Assembly (NCBI GenBank): GCA_036925085.1
Contig: JAUPFP010000006.1
Coordinates: forward strand, 8,375,325 to 8,439,324
Direction: 5' to 3'
DNA: 64,000 nt
Source of the DNA: Brachycybe producta
Lineage: Eukaryota; Arthropoda; Diplopoda; Playtdesmida; Andrognathidae
Part shown: positions 2,156 through 49,430 of the stretch, one piece after another
How positions within the stretch are numbered: position 1 is the first letter of the stretch
Layout: each line of letters opens with the position of its first letter
Made by a program: the position numbers and the translations under genes
Notes under the pieces: model-generated
What the model was told of the DNA's origin: nothing
The model's database searches: none
Seen by the model: the letters and a program-made list of their open reading frames with translations, nothing else

Positions 2156-4084
2156 ATGATTCCAGTATTTAAATTCTTAAAATTCTTGCATAAAAACGAA
2201 CAACTTTCTATCATATTTATGCACTGTTTATTTAATATTTCTATATGAAACGCCTAATTCCTAAAACAACTTGCATTTTTGCATAAAAAGTTGTCGCCTT
2301 ACTAATTACTCTTAATTATAAACACCATTCACAGAATCAAAGGAATTCTTTTGAGTCAGAGCCGCAAATGCTTCGGCTAACTTATATTACTTAAGGACAA
2401 AGTTGTGAGAGAAAAACGTTTCCTCAGAGCTCTGACAACAGTCTTCGATATTAAGCCTATTGAAACAGTAAAATCGGCAACACTGTGCTTCCTATAGGAA
2501 CGCAATAGGAGAGCAAAATAGAGGAGAAGGCGAACAGTGTTGCCAACTACCCGAAATGGTCACACATTTCTTATTATCCGACAAAAACCTGTAAAAAGCT
2601 AAAGCGTTCACGTGTTTCAACATTCTTTTACGAAAAATACTTTGCTAACGGGCGAACTAACGATACAGTACCACAATGACAACTTAGCGATGATTGCATT
2701 AAATAACTTACCCGTTGGTTGATCTGCCAAAACGGCTAACAATGAACTAATTTACTAAAGAACTAAATTATGAAAACTTTTTCACACAGTAAAAAAACCA
2801 CGACATAAACACGCGTAGACACTACTAAACTCATTATTAACACACACAAACAGCTTATAAACGCAAAATGTTAGCTTTTTCCTACAAGAAAGAGAAAGAA
2901 AAAAACAAGAGACGCGAAAAACCGTTAAAACTTCGTTCGCACAACAAACAAGCAGCCGCTCACTTAACGAGGCAAAAAGTGGTAACCTCGTCTGGTATTG
3001 AATATTATTGTTGTTCACTACGCAACGCCATGTTTTAGTACGACCACAGCCATTTTGTGTCCCTTGGTTTTATTAACATTAAATGACAAATGTAGCACAA
3101 AATGGACGTCTTGAAGGTATTTTTTAATGTACACACGCAATGATAAGTAAAGGCGGGAAACAACTTTGGGGGGGGAGTGGCTTTTATAAGCAACCTAATA
3201 TGCGGGTCTATTATGTTTCGACTCGGCATTCGTTAATTGAAATATACGTGTATTATGTAGCCTTGACAACGTAGTTAATTAATTAGAAATTAACTACGCG
3301 ATTAGAAATAGTAGAGTGAATGTGGTACTAGAATACTATCGATACTAGGTAGACGAGTCTAGACCACAAACCTTGAGTCTGCATAGCCATAGAGATAAAC
3401 AAGAAGGGTAAACCAAGATGGCGTATCAGGTACTTAAATATTTATGGTAAAGCCCGCCATCTTTGTTCAAACAGAACTTATTGTATATACTGTAATATAC
3501 ATAGGATAGTAGAAATATTAGAAATGGCCCAATCACATAGCCAGAATAGTCTTATGGTGGCAATGATCACGTGTTGACATCACGAACCCGTACGACCGTA
3601 CACAACGTGTAAATGAGCTTTTATTGATGGTTTTTATCAAGGAGGTTAGAAGTGTGTAACATACTCTCCAAACCTGGGAGGGAGGATAGGGTAAGAGGGG
3701 GGGGGGACGACGGAAGGCTAATGCTACCAAATAACAAATCCGAAATTTCCTTTCATTATTCATGAATTTTTAGATTTTAATTAACCAAATGATAATTACA
3801 ATTTAAACACTTTTAATGAACTTTCACGAAGTTCCACATGACGTCATAGAACCATTTACACACAATTGAAGCCATTATTGCTTAACATATGTTAGATTTA
3901 TCTATTGTTTCTATGAACAATAAAATTACTCGACTAGACAATTAATATTTACAAATTCCATTGTTTTCAATAATTATTAATAATAAAGAACGTACATTTC
4001 AATATAAGAAAAAATGAAATAAAATATTACAACAATAAATAATCTGGCAAAAAAATTGTGATAATTTAGTTACCGTCTGTTCAT
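2156..4084. other. Intergenic region, no supported gene
   Basis: Two short inverted ends GGCAACACTGT (about 2468) and ACAGTGTTGCC (about 2536) bracket a roughly 80-bp fragment that looks like a transposon remnant. CpG-containing sequence near 3000-3070 and 3415-3470, with AAGATGGCG and its reverse complement, may be promoter-like, but no exon could be attached to it. The remainder is AT-rich. Confidence 0.4.
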
Positions 4085-6854
4085 TTAACAAAGTCCTTCG
4101 GCGTATTCGTCGTCCGCAGCCGTGTCTACTTTGGCAGCCGGAATGTCGACTTTATCCGACTCTTTCTCACGAGACCGTTCGTCATTTTGATCGCTAGGTC
4201 TCGTTCCGTCGACGTTCATTCCCGACAACTGGCATGTGGTCGAATCGACCACACTTCCAGTCAACGGAGTCTTAGAAACGTAAGACAAAGAAAGCGCTTC
4301 GCTTCTGACGGAAGACGTTCTTTCCGGGCGTTTCGACGTCTCGAGACCATTGAGGGTGTTTGGAACTCCGAGATTCCGCGCCAATTTCGCATACTGACAA
4401 ACATTAGACGAACAAATTACCCTTTTTTATAATCGTGTATCGAGATAGGTGGTCAAACCAACCTCAACGTCCATGTGTTTAAGAAAAGGACTATTCAAAG
4501 CCCTTGCAGCTAATTCATCGTCCTCTTGATCGAACGCCTCGAGAAGCGTTTCGATTGTCGAAACCTCTTCCTGTTCGATACAACTGCAAACGCCCCCAAA
4601 AACAAACTTGAATTTAAAACAAAAACTTCAAACGTCGCAAAGTTCAATATCCTACCCTTGACATCCATCAAAAGCCTTCTGAGCTGCAACTAAATCTCCC
4701 CTCGTGAGATGAATCAAGACGAGACAAACGATCAAACGACCGACAGCCGATCGGTTCTCGCCTCCTTCCTGCAATTCGATCTCTCGTTTGACAAGATCGG
4801 CCGCTTCATCGTAACGTCTCATCTTAACCATCAACCTAGCCGCTTTGCCAAGATATTCGGCAGATTGTTTCGGTCGATCTTCCAACTGTTAACAGAAAAA
4901 TATAAAGTTTACCAATTTAAAGGACATTTAAAAATTATTTTTAAACAACCAGAACGACGTCGGCAGCTTTTTCGTAAAACCTCGCAGCTTGATCTGGATA
5001 TTTAGATTCAACCATTCTAAATCAAACACAAACAAAGTTACAAAGGGGCGAAACATCTATAAACCATTCAGTCGAACTCACTTGGCTCCCTTTTCGAGCG
5101 ACAGAGCTGCCGTGTCCGGAGTTCCGTGCTCCTGAAACAATCTGCTTGCTCTTTCAACTAATTCAATGGCTCCGAGAAGATCTCCCATGTCCTTTGAAAC
5201 CAGTGCTGCTTGTTCAAGGCTCCTGTGGACACAGAAAGAAACACGAAACCATTAAGCCACCATTAAACCATTAAACACTACTGACACATACTTTGCCGCC
5301 GAGAAATATGAATGTTGTTGTCTGTGACAATCGGCCGCTTTCATCAGACATTCCTTGCAGTTCGATTGTGCTTTTGCGTTCTTGAAACTTGTAGCTAGAC
5401 ATAAAATACATATTAAATTTAAGGATCACAAACAAGCAACCAATAAATCTTCACCTGCGTTTGCATAATCCATTGCGGCTCCTTCGTAATCTGGTCTCCA
5501 TTTGAATAGAGACGTTTTCAGGCTGAAATTATTCAAAAACTCCTATCTTGTAACAAGAAAAACGGCCAATTCTATCTGTATTTATTTCACTTTTTTTCAT
5601 ATAAGAAGAAAACGTCACTAAAACACAGCTTCTTCTATTTTTTTTTTTTTTTTTTGGAAAAAAGCTTTAAGATGGTGGGACGCAAAAACGTTAAGGAAAC
5701 TTTGTTCAGGAACAACATTATGATAAAAGTCAAACTGTTTTCAAAACTAGAATGGTAGAAGATTATGCTAAAAGTTTTTCCGTAGCCAATATCTTAAAAA
5801 AAAAAAAATAAACGTTTTGTAGAAGTTTGAAATTTAGGTTTTTCCATTTACTGAAAAAAACCGCTTGTCATAAAAAGTTTATTTTGAAAGATATCAAGAA
5901 AATTAAAAAAAACTTTTAGAATTATCATCACCAACAATTCTTGTTTCTAAAATATTTTGAATTTTTTCTCCTTGAATTGTTTCTCCTTAAAAATGTTCGC
6001 TTGAAAACATAAATTTGTATCAAAACCGCGGGGTGGACGGGGAACAGATTTCCTATAAAAAATAATAGCCACGTCGCCATGCCATCCGGAAAGCAATTGT
6101 CACGGTGATAAGCCCACTAATTAAAACAGGCAATTAGAAAACGGGATGAACAGAAGTTGGCTCCGCCCTTTTTATGACGAATGGCAACTTCTAATTGGTT
6201 TGTTATGTAGTCTGACGTCACATGCTCCGCTCTTTTCAACCGTACAACCACACAACAAACCAATTAGAAGTTGCCGTTCGTCATAAAAAGAGGGCGGAGC
6301 CAACTTCTGTTTATCCCGTTTTCTAATTGCCTGTTCTGTAGACAGCGTCAGAATTTCTTTGGCTCCGCCCTTTTATGAGCGTCATCAAATTCTAATTGGT
6401 CCGTTACTTGGTCTGATGTCGCATGCCCCGCCCTTTTTATTTCTAATTGGTTGATATTTGGTCTGAAGCTGTCTACAGATACCTGTGCTGGTTTCAGCGT
6501 TGAGTTTAAAAACGTACTGATTGACATGTCTATAATCGATATATGGCGCTACCTCCTCACCTCTCACTTGATTTATTGTGAAATTTCTTTAATTCATGGC
6601 AGTAATTGTAATTCAGAATACCATAATTAAACTATAGAATATAAAAAATTAAGCAGTTTTTTAAAGCATTTTAGGTCCCTCCAACAACCTTCCACCCCTT
6701 CAATGAGTAACGCATCGGAAATGAACAAAAATCTCTTCGACATTTCGCCTTTAAACAGAAAAGAAGACATTAAAATGATGAAATTTTACCACTTATCCGC
6801 CTGTCTCATGTATTCCATTCCTTCTGTAAACTTTTTCGATGAATTCGTCGACAT
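4085..6854 (-). CDS. NAPG: Gamma-SNAP (soluble NSF attachment protein gamma)
   Basis: Adaptor that brings NSF to SNARE complexes in membrane fusion; cytosolic and peripheral membrane. Eight coding exons, 5' to 3': 6790-6854, 5455-5522, 5292-5394, 5082-5222, 4950-5016, 4656-4885, 4463-4583, 4085-4393. All have GT-AG borders and phases agree throughout, giving 367 residues (human about 312); the excess lies in a Ser/Asp-rich segment of the last exon. Diagnostic stretches are LKTSLFKWRPDYEGAA, TPDTAALSLEKGAK, LNSPFLKHMDVEYAKLARNL and the family-typical end EYAEGLC. The start (ATG at 6854) was chosen because MSTNSSKKFTEGMEYMRQAD matches the usual short N-terminus and its last codon is completed across the intron. 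Intron 1 is 1.27 kb because it holds two MITEs (6127-6333, 6336-6478); the others are about 60-75 bp. Confidence 0.95.
6127..6333. mobile_element. Palindromic MITE, ACAGGC family (copy A2), in NAPG intron 1
   Basis: Ends CAGGCAATTAGAAAACGGG and its inverted complement; internal core contains GGCTCCGCCC and GACGTCACATG as in the other copies. No target duplication is visible because a second element starts 2 bp after its right end. Confidence 0.85.
6336..6478. mobile_element. Palindromic MITE with CTGTAGACAGC ends (copy B1)
   Basis: Inverted ends CTGTAGACAGC / GCTGTCTACAG. The core (CTCCGCCCTTTTATGAGCGTCA, given in parts: TCCGCCC, TTTATGAGCG, TCTAATTGG) is shared with the ACAGGC family although the ends differ. 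The right arm is shortened compared with copy B2 at 30235-30411. Confidence 0.8.
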
Positions 6855-40875: not shown

Positions 40876-43440
40876 ATAACAACAATTTACAATTAAAACA
40901 AAAAGACATTCCGAGGGAGGGAAAAAAAATCAGTCATTGTTTTCCAAAATAAAATTGAAAGTTTACTTTTGTTACGATTCTATTTCTTATTATATAAAAT
41001 GTATTTTTTATTCAAAGTCTTTTTAAGTTTTTTTTTAATTAAGCAACTAAGTTGTAAAAATATTTGAGATTTTTATAATAAAAAGATTTTTGATCATGTA
41101 TGTAAATTAAAAATGTTGATTTACAGTCGTTTACAGAGTGTTCCATTAGTATGAACTCATAATAACAATACAAATGTGTCCACCATTGTTCTTGATACAG
41201 AAATCCACGAAGTGAATGATGGGAATGCTCTCGTTAAGATCATGCAGCTAAAAGCACTGCTTGCAACGGGACTGGCTCACTACAGCTAACTGGGTCGCTA
41301 CAGCTAACTGGGTCACTACAGCTACTAGGCTCACTACAGCTACTAGGGTCACTACAGCTACCAAAAAGAAAATATAGACCTTTTTTTCATCAAAAGGGTC
41401 ACTACAGCTACCGAGGGTCACTACAGCTACCAAGGGTCACTACAGCTACCAAAAAATATAGGCCTTTTTATTTATCTATACGTTTAGTTTAGATTACATT
41501 CGGTTCAGTTAGGTTTCATTATTTTTGATTAGGTTTCATTAAGCTCGGTAAGGTTCGGTTAGGTTTGGTTAGGAATGGATCGGTAAGGTTCGGTTTGGTT
41601 AGGTTCGGATCGGTTAGGTTTGGTTAGAATCGGTTAGGTTTGGTTAGGATCGGTTAGGTTAGGTTTGGTTAAGATCGTTAAGGTTCGGTAAGGTTTCATT
41701 ATGTAAGGTTCGGTTAGGTTAGGGGGAAAGGGTTATTTTTTTTAGCTGTAGTGACGAGAAAGTGATAAAAAAAGGTCTATATTTTGTCCCCCTATTTTTT
41801 GGTAGCTGTAGTGACCCTTTTGATGAACAAAAGGTCTATTAATTTTTGGTTGGGGGTCACTACAGCTACCAAGGCTCACAAGCGCTACTAGGGGGAGAAC
41901 CGCTACTTGGGTCACTACAGCTACCAAAAAAATATATAGACCTTTTGTTCATCAAAAGGGTCACTACAGCTACCAAAAAATAGGGGGACAAAATATAGAC
42001 CTTTTTTATCACTTTCTCGTCACTACAGCTAAAAAAATAACCCTTTCTCCATAACCTAACCGAACCTTACCGAACCATACCTAACCGAAAATTAACGATC
42101 CTAACCAAAAAGTACCGATACTAACCGATACTAACCAAACCTAAACGATCCTAACCTAACCTAACCGATCCTAACCAAACCTAACCGATCCTAACCAAAC
42201 CTAACCGAACCTAAGCGATCCTAACCGATCCTAACCAAACCTAACCGAACCTTACTGAACATAATGAAACCTAATCGAACATAATGAAACCTAACTGAAC
42301 CGAATGTAATCTAAACTAAACATATTGATAAATAAAAAGGCCTATATTTTTTGGTAGCTGTAGTGACCCTTGGTAGCTGTAGTGACCCTTGGTAGCTGTA
42401 GTGACCCTTGGTAGCTGTAGTGACCCTTTTGATGAAATAAAGGTCTATATATTTTTTTTGGTAGCTGTAGTGACCCAGTTAGCTGTAGTGAGCCAGTCCC
42501 TAATTTTTTTGGTAGCTGTAGTGACCCAAGTAGCGGTTCTCCCCCTAGTAGCGCTTGTGAGCCTTGGTAGCTGTAGTGACCCCCAACCCTTGCAACATTA
42601 CAGAAAAATGACGTCAACACCATGACGTACCACATTGCATTGTGGTACAAGGCGCCTGCTGTGATAGTGATTTTTCTATAATGCTGTACGCAGTGCATTA
42701 ACTGCATGATCGTAACGAGTACATTAATTCTAATGGACACATTTGTGTTGTTTCTACGAGTTCAAACTTATTAGCCACCCTGTATAATGAAAAATGTTTT
42801 TTAAGTCTTACGTTTATGTTCGTTAAGTTTCGTAAAGTTGTGTTAATTTAAATATAGAAATTATTATTATAGTAAAACAATTACATCGAAAAAGCCTTCA
42901 AAAATCGGATCACTTTATATGATTAATCGAAACTAAAAAAATCGATTCTCCGATTAATCGAATCGGAAAACCACTGGCAGTCGGCTCGAGTAGCCCGTTT
43001 TTGACGACACGCCAACCACAAACCAGTCCAACTCGACCACTAAAAGTCGCTTATCGGTGAACACCTTTAGGTGCTATTGTGACGCTCCTTTTCTAAACAT
43101 TTGTTGTTTACTAGTTTGTAAATCTCTTCACGAAAACTATTCTACAGCTGTAACTTTTATCAAGATAAAAAGCGGAAAAAAACCACAAATAATTAATAAA
43201 AATAATTATGTATGACTGGTAGTGTGATTAGAGAATTACGACTAGAAAATAAAAAACATTTATGTCCAGACCGGCTGAACAATTAAAAAAGAATTCCAAA
43301 ATTAAAACGTTGAATTTTATAACTTGTGGTTTTTAAAAATAAAACTTATTTTTAAATATATAATAAAATTAATTAAATGATTTAGGCCTATAATTATCAA
43401 ACTGTAAAATTCGTTAAAATTAAGATTTGTCTTGTTCTAA
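40876..43440. other. Gene-free interval between TMEM42 and LRRC29-like gene
   Basis: Mostly the large nested inverted repeat (41258-42596). To its right, 42890-42985 looks like one end of a hAT element (GATTAATCGAATCGG then CCACTG) and 42990-43070 carries an arm of the MITE seen at 34454-34683. No exon supported. Confidence 0.5.
41258..42596. repeat. Large nested inverted repeat with degenerate GGTTAGG arrays
   Basis: About 1.34 kb. Outer layer: arrays of GGGTCACTACAGCTACC (8 copies, 41272-41450) facing GGTAGCTGTAGTGACCC copies (42350-42590). Middle layer: about 250 bp of degenerate GGTTAGGTTTGGTTAGGATC units (41480-41730) facing the complementary array (42050-42310). Inner layer: 41735-41840 facing 41935-42045. 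The centre (41845-41930) is itself repeated, inverted, at the right edge. Open frames across it (VAVVTLGSCSDP type) are by-products. Confidence 0.9.
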
Positions 43441-45690
43441 TCACGAAAGACGATGAAATCTAAAAGTGTCCGTGTTCAATCCGTTTGCCTGCAAGTGTCT
43501 CTTGTTGATGTGGAGTCGAGACAACGTCGCCTCGAGTGACTCGAGCGAATCCAAAGTTACTGCCGGACAGACGGACACGTCCAGATAATGCAGCTCGGGA
43601 CACCAATGCTTCAGAGCGTCCAAAGTTGGCTGTCCAATTTTACGACAACCCTAAATTGGAAGACACACCACAAATGAAAAGTGACCGAGTAAAACGTTTT
43701 GCACCGGAAAGGCGGTGGTTAAGGTAGTTTTAAAGTGGAAACGGCTCCCAAACTCTGATTATTCTGTTTTTCGGGTGAACAATGAAGCGAAACTCGACCG
43801 TGTTTTAGAAACTAGAAGGGTAGCTTGATCACTTAAAGGTGTTTTCATGTTGACATCATTCAAAATAATCTTTTTATGTCAGTTTGAGAAAACGATGAGA
43901 AGTTTATTTTTAAATATATCAAACTTGAAAATAATCTCAAATGCTTGCGTTACCGACCCTTCTAGTTTCTAAAACATTTTTCTGGTTTCCCTTAATTTTG
44001 CGCCTGAAAAGCAGACTAATCATAGTTTCAAAAACTAGCTGTTCATAAAACCATCTTAATACTTTCGTCATACCTGAAGGTCCAAATGTTTGAGCCGTGG
44101 CAGACACTTGACGAGTGCCACGACTCCGACGTCGGTTATCTCTCGACACTGACTCAATACGAGGTTTTCGAGACTACCGTTGCAGGCACCTATCGAAACC
44201 AATCCGCTATCGGTGATTTTGTGACAAAGACTAAGATTAAGAGAAATAAGTTCCTTAAAACGAATGGATTCCTTAAGTCCACTGTCCGTTATTTCGGAAC
44301 AAGCGCACAAATCCAACTTTCTCAGTCCACGTATGTTCGAAAGACTAAATAATAACGCCGTTTGATCGTCGTCTTTTTTGCTGTTATTCTCCTCACCACC
44401 GGATCCTTTCAATCCGACATCCGTTATCGCGTTACACCAAGCCAACTTAAGAGTACGTAACCATCGCAAGTGACGACAGATACTCTGCAACGAAGTATCG
44501 GTCACTCCTTTGCGACAGTTACTAAGATCGAGGTCTCGTAATCGAGTTAGGCAACTCGCCAAGGCAACGACGGTATCTTCCGATAAATTAGAAGCCGAGA
44601 GATTCAAACTGACGAGGCTCGTAGCGAGATTAGAGCACAACGAAGCTTGAAACCCGGAAGTATAAATGGATTCGCACTCGGAAAGATTTAAATCCGAGAG
44701 AAACGGAAGCTTACCGAGATCCACGATACCGTCTGCAGCAAGACTACGACACGTACCGAGATTTAGTGTCTTCAGTTTCGTCAGACAATGAGTCACGTTC
44801 AGAACGGCATCGTCTACGATCTTGGAACACTTCGTGACGTCGAGAACCGTTAGATCTCTCTGATGGGCACATATGGAACCGATTCCGTCAACCGATACCT
44901 GTTGACAGTTGACGAGCCGCAGCTCTTCGAGACGAAGATCGGGAAGAACGCAAAGCCGCTTCAAAGCGCTATCGTCTACCGGAGTGTTACTGAAATCGAG
45001 AGACTTTAACTTTGAACTGTGGCGTTCGAAGAATTTGACGACGTTCTGAAATGTGAGAACCGATTCGGAAGCGATGGACCTCAGACCATTCTGCGGATAA
45101 AATCGTTTATAAATCGCAGGATGAAACGAAATCTGACAACCAGCCAAAGACATCCGCACCACGTTCGGAGTAAACGATGTCAACCTGTTAAAAAGTGCGT
45201 CGGATAAATATCGATTGTTACTTAGATCGAGTTCTCGAAGGGAGACCAAAGCTTCGAGAGAAACACCGACGGATCTATCGAGAAGTTTTCCGGACATAAA
45301 GAGACTGTTGCAGCCGTCGGCAGTAAGAGACTCGAGATTCGGACATCGAAAGAGAATGTCACAAAATGTCCGTTCACTTATATCACAACTTTCGAACGTC
45401 AGTTCCGTGATGCCGGGACCGAGATTGTCCCAAAATGTATCCCATCCTCGTACGTGTTCTTTCTGTAAGCTAGCCGATCGAAATGCGACTCGATGAACCG
45501 TCTGCTGACTGTATTTCAAGGCGTCGAATCCACGGCTCACATCTTCCAACATTGTAACACCTAGTTTCTTGCCACGTCTCGAAGTTCCAACAAGACAACA
45601 ATTGTAAAGCGTGTGACAAGTACGAGCGACCGCCGTACGGTCCGAAAGGGGAAGAAATTGAACGATGTAATCGATCACCTGAAAAATCAT
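43441..45690 (-). CDS. LRRC29: F-box and leucine-rich repeat protein (LRRC29/FBXL9-like)
   Basis: Probable substrate adaptor of an SCF ubiquitin ligase. Two exons: 44074-45690 and 43441-43650, joined in phase 0 (LDLQ|GCRKIGQ), 608 residues. The N-terminus is F-box-like (IVQFLPLSDRTAVARTCHTL), followed by about 14 cysteine-containing leucine-rich repeats such as LVNCQQVSVDGIG, LNLGTCRSLAADGI, LDLCACSEITDSGL and LSQCREITDVGVVALVK. The C-terminal repeats resemble vertebrate LRRC29. The start is uncertain: ATG 45690 begins MIFQVIDYIV, but TTTTTCAG|GTGATC at 45679 is also a good acceptor, so a short 5' exon may be missing; none was found up to 49 kb among the many insertions. The single intron (423 bp) is almost wholly a MITE (43718-44072). 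Confidence 0.85.
43718..44060. mobile_element. Full copy of the AACTAGAAGGGT palindromic MITE
   Basis: Long inverted-repeat element, about 340-355 bp. Outer arms TTAAGGTAGTTTTAAAGTGG / ATAAAACCATCTTAA, middle arms GTGTTTTAGAAACTAGAAGG / CCTTCTAGTTTCTAAAACA, inner arms around AAAATAATCTTTTTAT. Fills the LRRC29-like intron, leaving about 70-80 bp, the usual intron size here. Confidence 0.85.
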
Positions 45691-48239: not shown

Positions 48240-48905
48240 TTGTTGATTAAAAAAACGGTTTTTAACGTTTTTTCTCCCGGTTCGAAGTCACATAATAATT
48301 AATTGAAAAATAATTTCGCGTGCTAAGCTTATAAAAAGAAAACATTGTGAAGCCAGTAGATTAATGCACGTAAAAATTATTTTGTTATTGTTCTGAGTTG
48401 TTTTTAACGGGAGTTCTTCAAATGTTTGGGTGACGGTTTTTTGCTCCTATTATGGGACTTAACATGGAGTTAAAAAAACGTAAGATTTAAATGTTATTTA
48501 AAAATAGAAAGCCCTTTTCAAATTTAGAAAAAGGAATAATCCTGAAGGCAATAAATGTAAGTACGTGCTAATTTTTCTGATTGCTCTAAATCATTTTTAA
48601 TCAGAGTTCTCTTAACTTTTGTTGGACGGTGTTTTAGTCCTATGGGACTTAACATGGAGTTAAAAAACGTACGATTTTAAACGTTATTAAAAAATAGAAG
48701 GACCTTTTCAAAATTTATAAAAAGGAAACATCGTGAAGCCAATAGATGAATGTATGTGCTAATTATTTTGTTATTGTTCTAAATCAGTTTTAACGAGAGT
48801 TTTTCAAATGTTTGTGGGACGGTTTTTGATCCTATGGGATTTAACATGGGGTTGAAAAACGAACGACTTTGAACCTCGTTTAAAAATAGAAAGACCTTTT
48901 CAAAA
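48240..48905. repeat. Tandem array of about 175-bp units
   Basis: Roughly 3.5 units. Landmarks recur in order: AAGCCARTAGAT, TTATTTTGTTATTGTTCT, CGAGAGTTTTTCAAATGTTTG, GGGACTTAACATGGAGTT and AGACCTTTTCAAA. The first unit is partial. Confidence 0.8.
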
Positions 48906-49430
48906 ATTATATAAATCGAGCACGTGAAGAACAATACTTTTTATTGCATTTTGCGCTTTACTGTATTTGAATTGAGCGATTGTGAGGCGATTTCTTTCAG
49001 TTTTAGTAACACCATATAAGAACACTCATTTGTCTCGTTGTCGTCTGCTCAAAACAACAAGATGGACGGGGATCTAGGTTCTTAAAGTTGCTTTTAATAA
49101 TTTCATTTATTATATTATTAGAAGCAACTAACTTTAAGGTAGTTTTAAAGTGTAAACACATCTTGAATTCTCAATCATTCTATTTTTCAGTTAAAAAAAA
49201 ATGAAGAAAAAACTAGAATACTATAAAATCCACATCCAAACTGTACAGTATGTATGTAGGCGTACTGTGTTCTCTGAAATTTCATTGTATAAACAAATAA
49301 AAAGAGTGGGTTATCCTTTTGCTGACTGACACAGTGCACGTTTCTGTGTTCATTTGCGTTACCCAACAATGTGACGTCACACAGCCGTACATTATTGATT
49401 TAAAAAAAAAATTCTAAAAATGGTTAAAAA

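Follow-up and report, generated by a model that had tools for sequence, protein, structure and literature searches.

A layered palindrome with telomere-like arrays in Brachycybe producta, read as two oppositely nested copies of a short foldback-like DNA transposon

A 64,000-nucleotide stretch of the genome of the millipede Brachycybe producta (assembly GCA_036925085.1, contig JAUPFP010000006.1, positions 8,375,325 to 8,439,324; hereafter the window) contains a 1.3-kb palindrome with degenerate GGTTAGG arrays, which very probably consists of two copies of one non-autonomous DNA transposon of about 650 bp, nested in opposite orientation. A whole-genome search placed the window at C6:8375325-8439324, on a contig of 9582990 bases in a genome of 295 Mb and 442 contigs, and recovered the ordinary copy of the family as a single, dispersed unit of about 650 bp, the 1.3-kb palindrome not being its usual form. 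Single copies extend from one fixed end, the A-end (GGTTGGGGGTCACTACAGCTACC), to another, the B-end (GCTGTAGTGAGCCAGTCCC). The striking palindrome can be explained in this way without a new mechanism, and it illustrates how self-insertion of a transposon with composite ends gives rise to layered palindromes.

Two nested copies and their insertion sites

Among the inverted arms of the palindrome are 41394-41723/42080-42409 (330 nt, 83%), 41328-41452/42370-42494 (125 nt, 94%), 41768-41847/41928-42007 (80 nt, 98%) and 41848-41933/42503-42588 (86 nt, 100%, an exact reverse complement), and arm lengths alone leave chance as no serious option for their origin. Tandem Repeats Finder detected units of 17-19 bp together with 10- and 20-bp GGTTAGG-like arrays at the locus. 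An earlier description made from the letters of the window (the sequence-only reading) had proposed three repeat layers mirrored around 41890; the tandem and inverted repeats are present, but the single axis is not, because two copies of the element are nested, so that some arms fold about ~41888-41911 and the right-edge repeat of the central segment folds about ~42218.

The same reading had suspected that the short TTGCAA words at both edges were insertion borders, and this proved correct, in that an exact 8-bp target-site duplication (TSD; CTTGCAAC) encloses the structure. A second exact 8-bp duplication (TAATTTTT), which had escaped notice, marks the inner insertion (Table 1). What had been taken for a unique arm is the end region of the element, with hundreds of copies in the genome. 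The two pairs of TSDs and the two full sets of ends match two copies, and the reading as one fold-back element with a single axis was therefore rejected.

The outer copy spans 41268-42588 overall and measures 660 bp once the inner copy and one TAATTTTT are removed; restored in this way, it aligns with locus L029 at 91.7% (639/660 bases) and over the full length with L011 at 84.8%. The best match of the inner copy, L007, is 96.8% identical over 558 bp. Between them, the inner and outer copies share 87% identity over the whole alignment, and the two A-end regions match at 98-100% (over 80 and 86 nt), so that much of the divergence sits in the arrays. In the favoured account, one copy inserted in reverse orientation after position 41267, within an older palindromic repeat, duplicating CTTGCAAC; a second, forward copy later went into the run of Ts close to the first copy's A end, duplicating TAATTTTT, and the opposite orientation of the two gives the palindrome its layered appearance.

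Table 1. Features of the two nested copies and of the repeat that hosts them, in window coordinates
Feature	Position	Strand	Remarks
Left part of unrelated dispersed palindromic repeat hosting the outer copy	41189..41259	+	L082 and L083 align across the junction; extent from L083 alignment
Left TSD of outer copy, CTTGCAAC	41260..41267		Exact repeat at 42589-42596
Outer copy, B-end side and interior	41268..41847	-	Continues at 42509-42588
B-side terminal repeat of outer copy, 17-19-bp units (GGGTCACTACAGCTACC)	41271..41452	-	
Telomere-like pentamer-phased array of outer copy, GGTTAGG/GGATCGG units	41508..41723	-	Tandem Repeats Finder; whole outer copy scored against pentamer classes
Left TSD of inner copy, TAATTTTT	41840..41847		Exact repeat at 42501-42508
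Inner copy, complete, 653 bp, A-end (GGTTGGGGGTCACTACAGC) to B-end (GTGAGCCAGTCCC)	41848..42500	+	
Telomere-like array of inner copy, 20-bp unit CTAACCGATCCTAACCAAAC	42052..42328	+	
B-side terminal repeat of inner copy, 18-19-bp units	42351..42497	+	Tandem Repeats Finder
Right TSD of inner copy, TAATTTTT	42501..42508		
Outer copy, A-end side	42509..42588	-	42503-42588 mirrors 41848-41933 exactly (reverse complement)
Right TSD of outer copy, CTTGCAAC	42589..42596		
Right part of host repeat	42597..42748	+	Match rows for 42600-42790; empty-site alignment

When joined, the two flanks of the outer copy align across the insertion point with two fetched loci, L082 and L083, in diverged alignments with gaps elsewhere that carry no shuffled control. 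The outer copy therefore lies within a palindromic dispersed repeat unrelated to it, of which the two loci are paralogues with the site empty. At least 60 matches to the right flank (42600-42790) occur in the genome (40 of 173 candidates scored). A genome search with the left flank (41100-41259) matched only the flank itself, an apparent uniqueness that is false because the empty-site alignment puts part of this flank in the host repeat. A further inverted pair, 41132-41182/42734-42784 (51 nt, 78%), with CAGRGTG-like ends adjoining TA, brackets the whole nest and possibly represents the termini of a further short transposon that is older still. Beyond the nest, the minus strand holds an open frame of 540 aa at 44068-45690 with leucine-rich repeats (Pfam LRR_6, 2.1e-16).

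The family and its nests across the genome

With up to three mismatches allowed, a 27-mer of the A-end occurs at 484 genomic places (253 forward and 231 reverse), as opposed to 0 for the pattern read backwards, and the 100 of these that were listed are spread over contigs C1-C9. Sampled copies of the short element measure 385-778 bp. Exact TSDs flank 33 of 46 two-ended copies (29 at 8 bp and 4 at 9 bp), and 3 of 2070 mismatched flank pairs were identical at 8 bp, a control that covers the 8-bp class only. The 46 copies, 45 from fetched loci and the outer copy of the window, form a convenience sample chosen by similarity to the palindrome, by an exact A-end, or by close-lying ends or high similarity, and the count leaves out copies with no recognised B-end nearby, such as L026, L030, L034, L042 and L050. 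By eye, L030, L034 and L042 resemble A-end copies cut short by other sequence. Also by eye, what follows the truncated A-end of L034 is similar to a 192-bp tandem repeat present in 3 copies at 48329-48915 of the window. The flanks of L020 and L029 are identical, and independent events therefore number at most 45; these two loci (C6:8270259 and C1:10545245) have the same 12-base flanks on different contigs, the insertion having probably been copied along with its surroundings.

Dispersed, short and non-coding, with fixed ends and TSDs, these copies form a family of non-autonomous cut-and-paste DNA transposons resembling miniature inverted-repeat transposable elements (MITEs), and their composite ends, built from short tandem units, have the architecture of foldback (FB-like) elements. 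The units of about 17 bp in these ends would probably be binding sites of the transposase. The sequence-only reading had known no element with this architecture, a statement now to be qualified, in that the layered palindrome is the self-insertion of a short foldback-like transposon and its end order, A> [<B ... <A] B>, with an oppositely nested copy, recurs at three other loci (L055, L061 and L062) and in part, with one end unrecognised, at L063. The inner copies at these nested loci (L055, L061-L063) carry exact 8-bp duplications.

Such palindromic and tandem nests may be built into the behaviour of the family instead of being accidents, if its copies target the ends and TSDs of their own kind; this proposal, which would add to the nested-copy account, is given somewhat less than an even chance. 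It draws on clustering, as 21 of the 100 listed A-ends (484 in total) have another within 2 kb, making 11 pairs, when random placement on C1-C8 gave 0.23 pairs on average and a maximum of 3 in 2000 trials (the size of one contig being assumed). It also draws on L056, where 8 bp separate two copies and serve both as their duplication, exact for one and with 1 mismatch for the other, as if the second copy had inserted into the target duplication left by the first, and on L057, where two copies are likewise 8 bp apart with imperfect duplications. Some clusters, however, could come from recombination or local duplication, and the common geometry of L061-L063 is partly ascertainment, these loci having been found with the palindrome of the window as query. 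At L027/L064 (C1:9101518-9103049), GTCCTTTT is seen by eye to precede the A-end of one copy, and AAAAGGAC, the same 8 bases inverted, precedes the next, inverted copy, as would result if the distal portion of an insertion had been inverted along with its target duplication.

A longer relative and the superfamily of the transposase

Two relatives carry transposase-like sequence. At L065, the A-end is followed by a transposase-like reading sequence that is broken by a large insert; a genome search with its protein found one further place, L069, and a longer transposase query gave 4 match rows at 2 places, L069 and the broken C1 copy. At L069, 2186 bp are delimited by an A-end and a B-end that are identical to those of the short element at 127/134 and 88/93 positions (alignment scores of 210 and 125, the maxima of 200 shuffles being 26 and 28, respectively), and the interior holds, on the minus strand, a broken transposase-like gene in several frames, which was recognised as such by residue pattern alone, without any model match. 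The short copies would be moved in trans by a transposase that comes from a longer relative sharing their two ends.

The transposase of the family is probably Mutator-like, and the family would then work like a foldback family of Mutator-like elements (MULEs). The family resembles Mutator-like elements of the foldback type in TSD size, composite ends and residue spacing, and the exact duplications of 8 or 9 bp in 33 of 46 copies fall within the 8-10 bp typical of MULEs. Inverted similarity between the ends extends over ~140 bp in the short element (115/124 aligned bases, 10 gaps) and ~87 bp in L069 (77/82), with the outermost 14-74 bp of the ends lying outside these local alignments, the MULE yardstick being terminal inverted repeats of >100 bp. 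The transposase pieces contain GTFK..P, GC.FHF and TNxxE-like words, which we take to resemble MULE transposases. Candidate catalytic residues in the L069 read-through, picked by eye from words known in MULEs, across a stop and a frame change, are spaced 67 / 22 / 108 / 15 for (D)-D, D-H, D-W and W-E. The same residues in Muta1 are spaced 69 / 24 / 118 / 18 (PMC5225508).

Several observations weigh against the overall explanation, the Mutator-like transposase included, among them the manner in which these residues were picked. The position of the first catalytic Asp reads V in the read-through, and the flanks of L069 (CCGACAAC / GGAACAAC) show no clean TSD. Searches with the transposase pieces gave no convincing model match in Pfam or NCBIfam, and the read-through matched none in Pfam. 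Among the short copies, 13 of 46 have no exact TSD (4 differ at 1-2 of 8 bases and 9 have no clear duplication). Finally, L069 contains, by eye and unscored, two GGTTAGG-like units only and no array, and thus offers no record of where the array came from. A PDB search of the transposase pieces returned nothing useful. Likeness to MULEs is claimed here and membership is not, because Pfam scans of the pieces and of the read-through gave no match to the MULE domain PF10551.

The same nested transposon could instead belong to another superfamily with TSDs of 8 or 8-9 bp, be it hAT, P, Merlin or an undescribed one, and this is considered unlikely. Duplications of 8 or 8-9 bp are made by hAT, P and Merlin elements, and 8-bp TSDs dominate in the family. 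The missing MULE model match points the same way, as does Galileo, a P-superfamily element that likewise has foldback-like ends. On the other side stand the residue spacing that resembles Muta1, the MULE-like words and the asymmetric composite ends, such as those of the MULE family Tm1; nor did Pfam scans match hAT, P or Merlin transposase domains in these degenerate gene pieces.

The telomere-like array and comparison with known systems

The sequence-only reading had likened the GGTTAGG units to degraded TTAGG-type telomeric DNA, and the resemblance holds: among 204 pentamer classes, the inner array scores best against AACCT (=TTAGG; 146.5), followed by AACCG (127), with a maximum of 34 in 50 shuffles, and its mean autocorrelation is 0.65 at lags that are multiples of 5 and 0.24 at others. 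A telomeric or subtelomeric location does not hold, the window being interior to its contig and the degenerate array lying inside the element. The C-rich strand runs from A to B in 45/45 copies. Pure TTAGG arrays do exist in the genome, where overlapping 35-mer hits number 7122 on one strand and 473 on the other (2 and 0 when the pattern is read backwards), and positions 3501-6535 of contig C1 consist of Ns and then, from 5001 on, unbroken CCTAA, the strand expected at a left telomere; TTAGG is thus the probable telomere repeat of this genome, and telomeres of this type point to an arthropod (PMC8977481). At L066 (C2:5100000-5105500), a 25-bp GGTTAGG-like tandem array of 64.6 units occupies 2714-4337 inside an A-end copy, which would represent array growth within the element and recalls the growth described for Tetris (PMC4079207).

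It is plausible that telomeric repeats were captured a single time and drifted afterwards, in which case slippage may have reshaped the interior array since its uptake from telomeric DNA; alternatively, the pentamer array is unrelated to such repeats. The fuller proposal, in which a MULE-like short transposon captured host TTAGG once and spread it, always in one orientation, over hundreds of interior sites at which the array drifts and re-expands, while the element tends to insert into its own copies, is tentative and, taken whole, rather doubtful. Were the cargo truly captured, it would offer a way for interstitial telomere-like arrays and short satellites to spread through a genome with TTAGG telomeres, and the family would be a mobile source of such DNA. 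The telomere-like cargo is mildly unusual, whereas the element itself belongs to a known kind of transposon; judged by titles and the starts of abstracts, the open-licence papers listed in literature searches included no short DNA transposon with a TTAGG-like array.

Two further explanations are very improbable. The palindrome could be an assembly artefact in which one copy was collapsed in inverted form or folded back on itself, since palindromes are easily misassembled and the two A-end regions are nearly identical, but the overall divergence of inner and outer copies, the two different exact TSDs, the recurrence of the end order at three other loci and the two empty-site paralogues make this unlikely as judged from the sequence. 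The array could likewise be a relic of a telomere or of an interstitial telomere left by chromosome fusion or by a break repaired with telomeric DNA, in keeping with its top pentamer class and the pure arrays near the left end of C1; this was rejected, as the array lies in a dispersed element with fixed ends, many TSD-bounded interior copies, listed A-end places on nine contigs and one constant array orientation.

The nested-copy account sets the family beside several described systems. Muta1, an active MULE of Aedes aegypti that makes 8- or 9-bp duplications, has similar catalytic residue spacing and an intact, active transposase, whereas the element described here is non-coding and its two relatives were found broken (PMC5225508). 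Non-autonomous MULE ends carrying host DNA would liken it to capture of the Pack-MULE type (PMC5225508, PMC3169594), although the cargo would here be telomere-like repeats and their capture is only plausible. With Tetris, a foldback transposon of Drosophila virilis, it shares a non-autonomous nature and internal tandem repeats that expand to longer arrays, as at L066; the internal repeats of the Tetris terminal inverted repeats are of ~220 bp, in contrast to the telomere-like pentamers here (PMC4079207). Tm1, a Mutator/foldback family of root-knot nematodes (Meloidogyne), differs in having units of ~14 bp instead of ~17 bp, TSDs mostly of 9 bp instead of 8 bp and, in Tm1-A, a MULE domain recognised by Pfam, and the available text mentions no telomere-like array (PMC3169594). 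Like the present family, it has composite terminal repeats built from short redundant units, asymmetric end motifs that lie beyond the inverted repeat, and MITE-like copies with TSDs (8-10 bp without consensus in Tm1); its single, MULE-coding member would have a counterpart in the broken transposase-like gene found here (PMC3169594).
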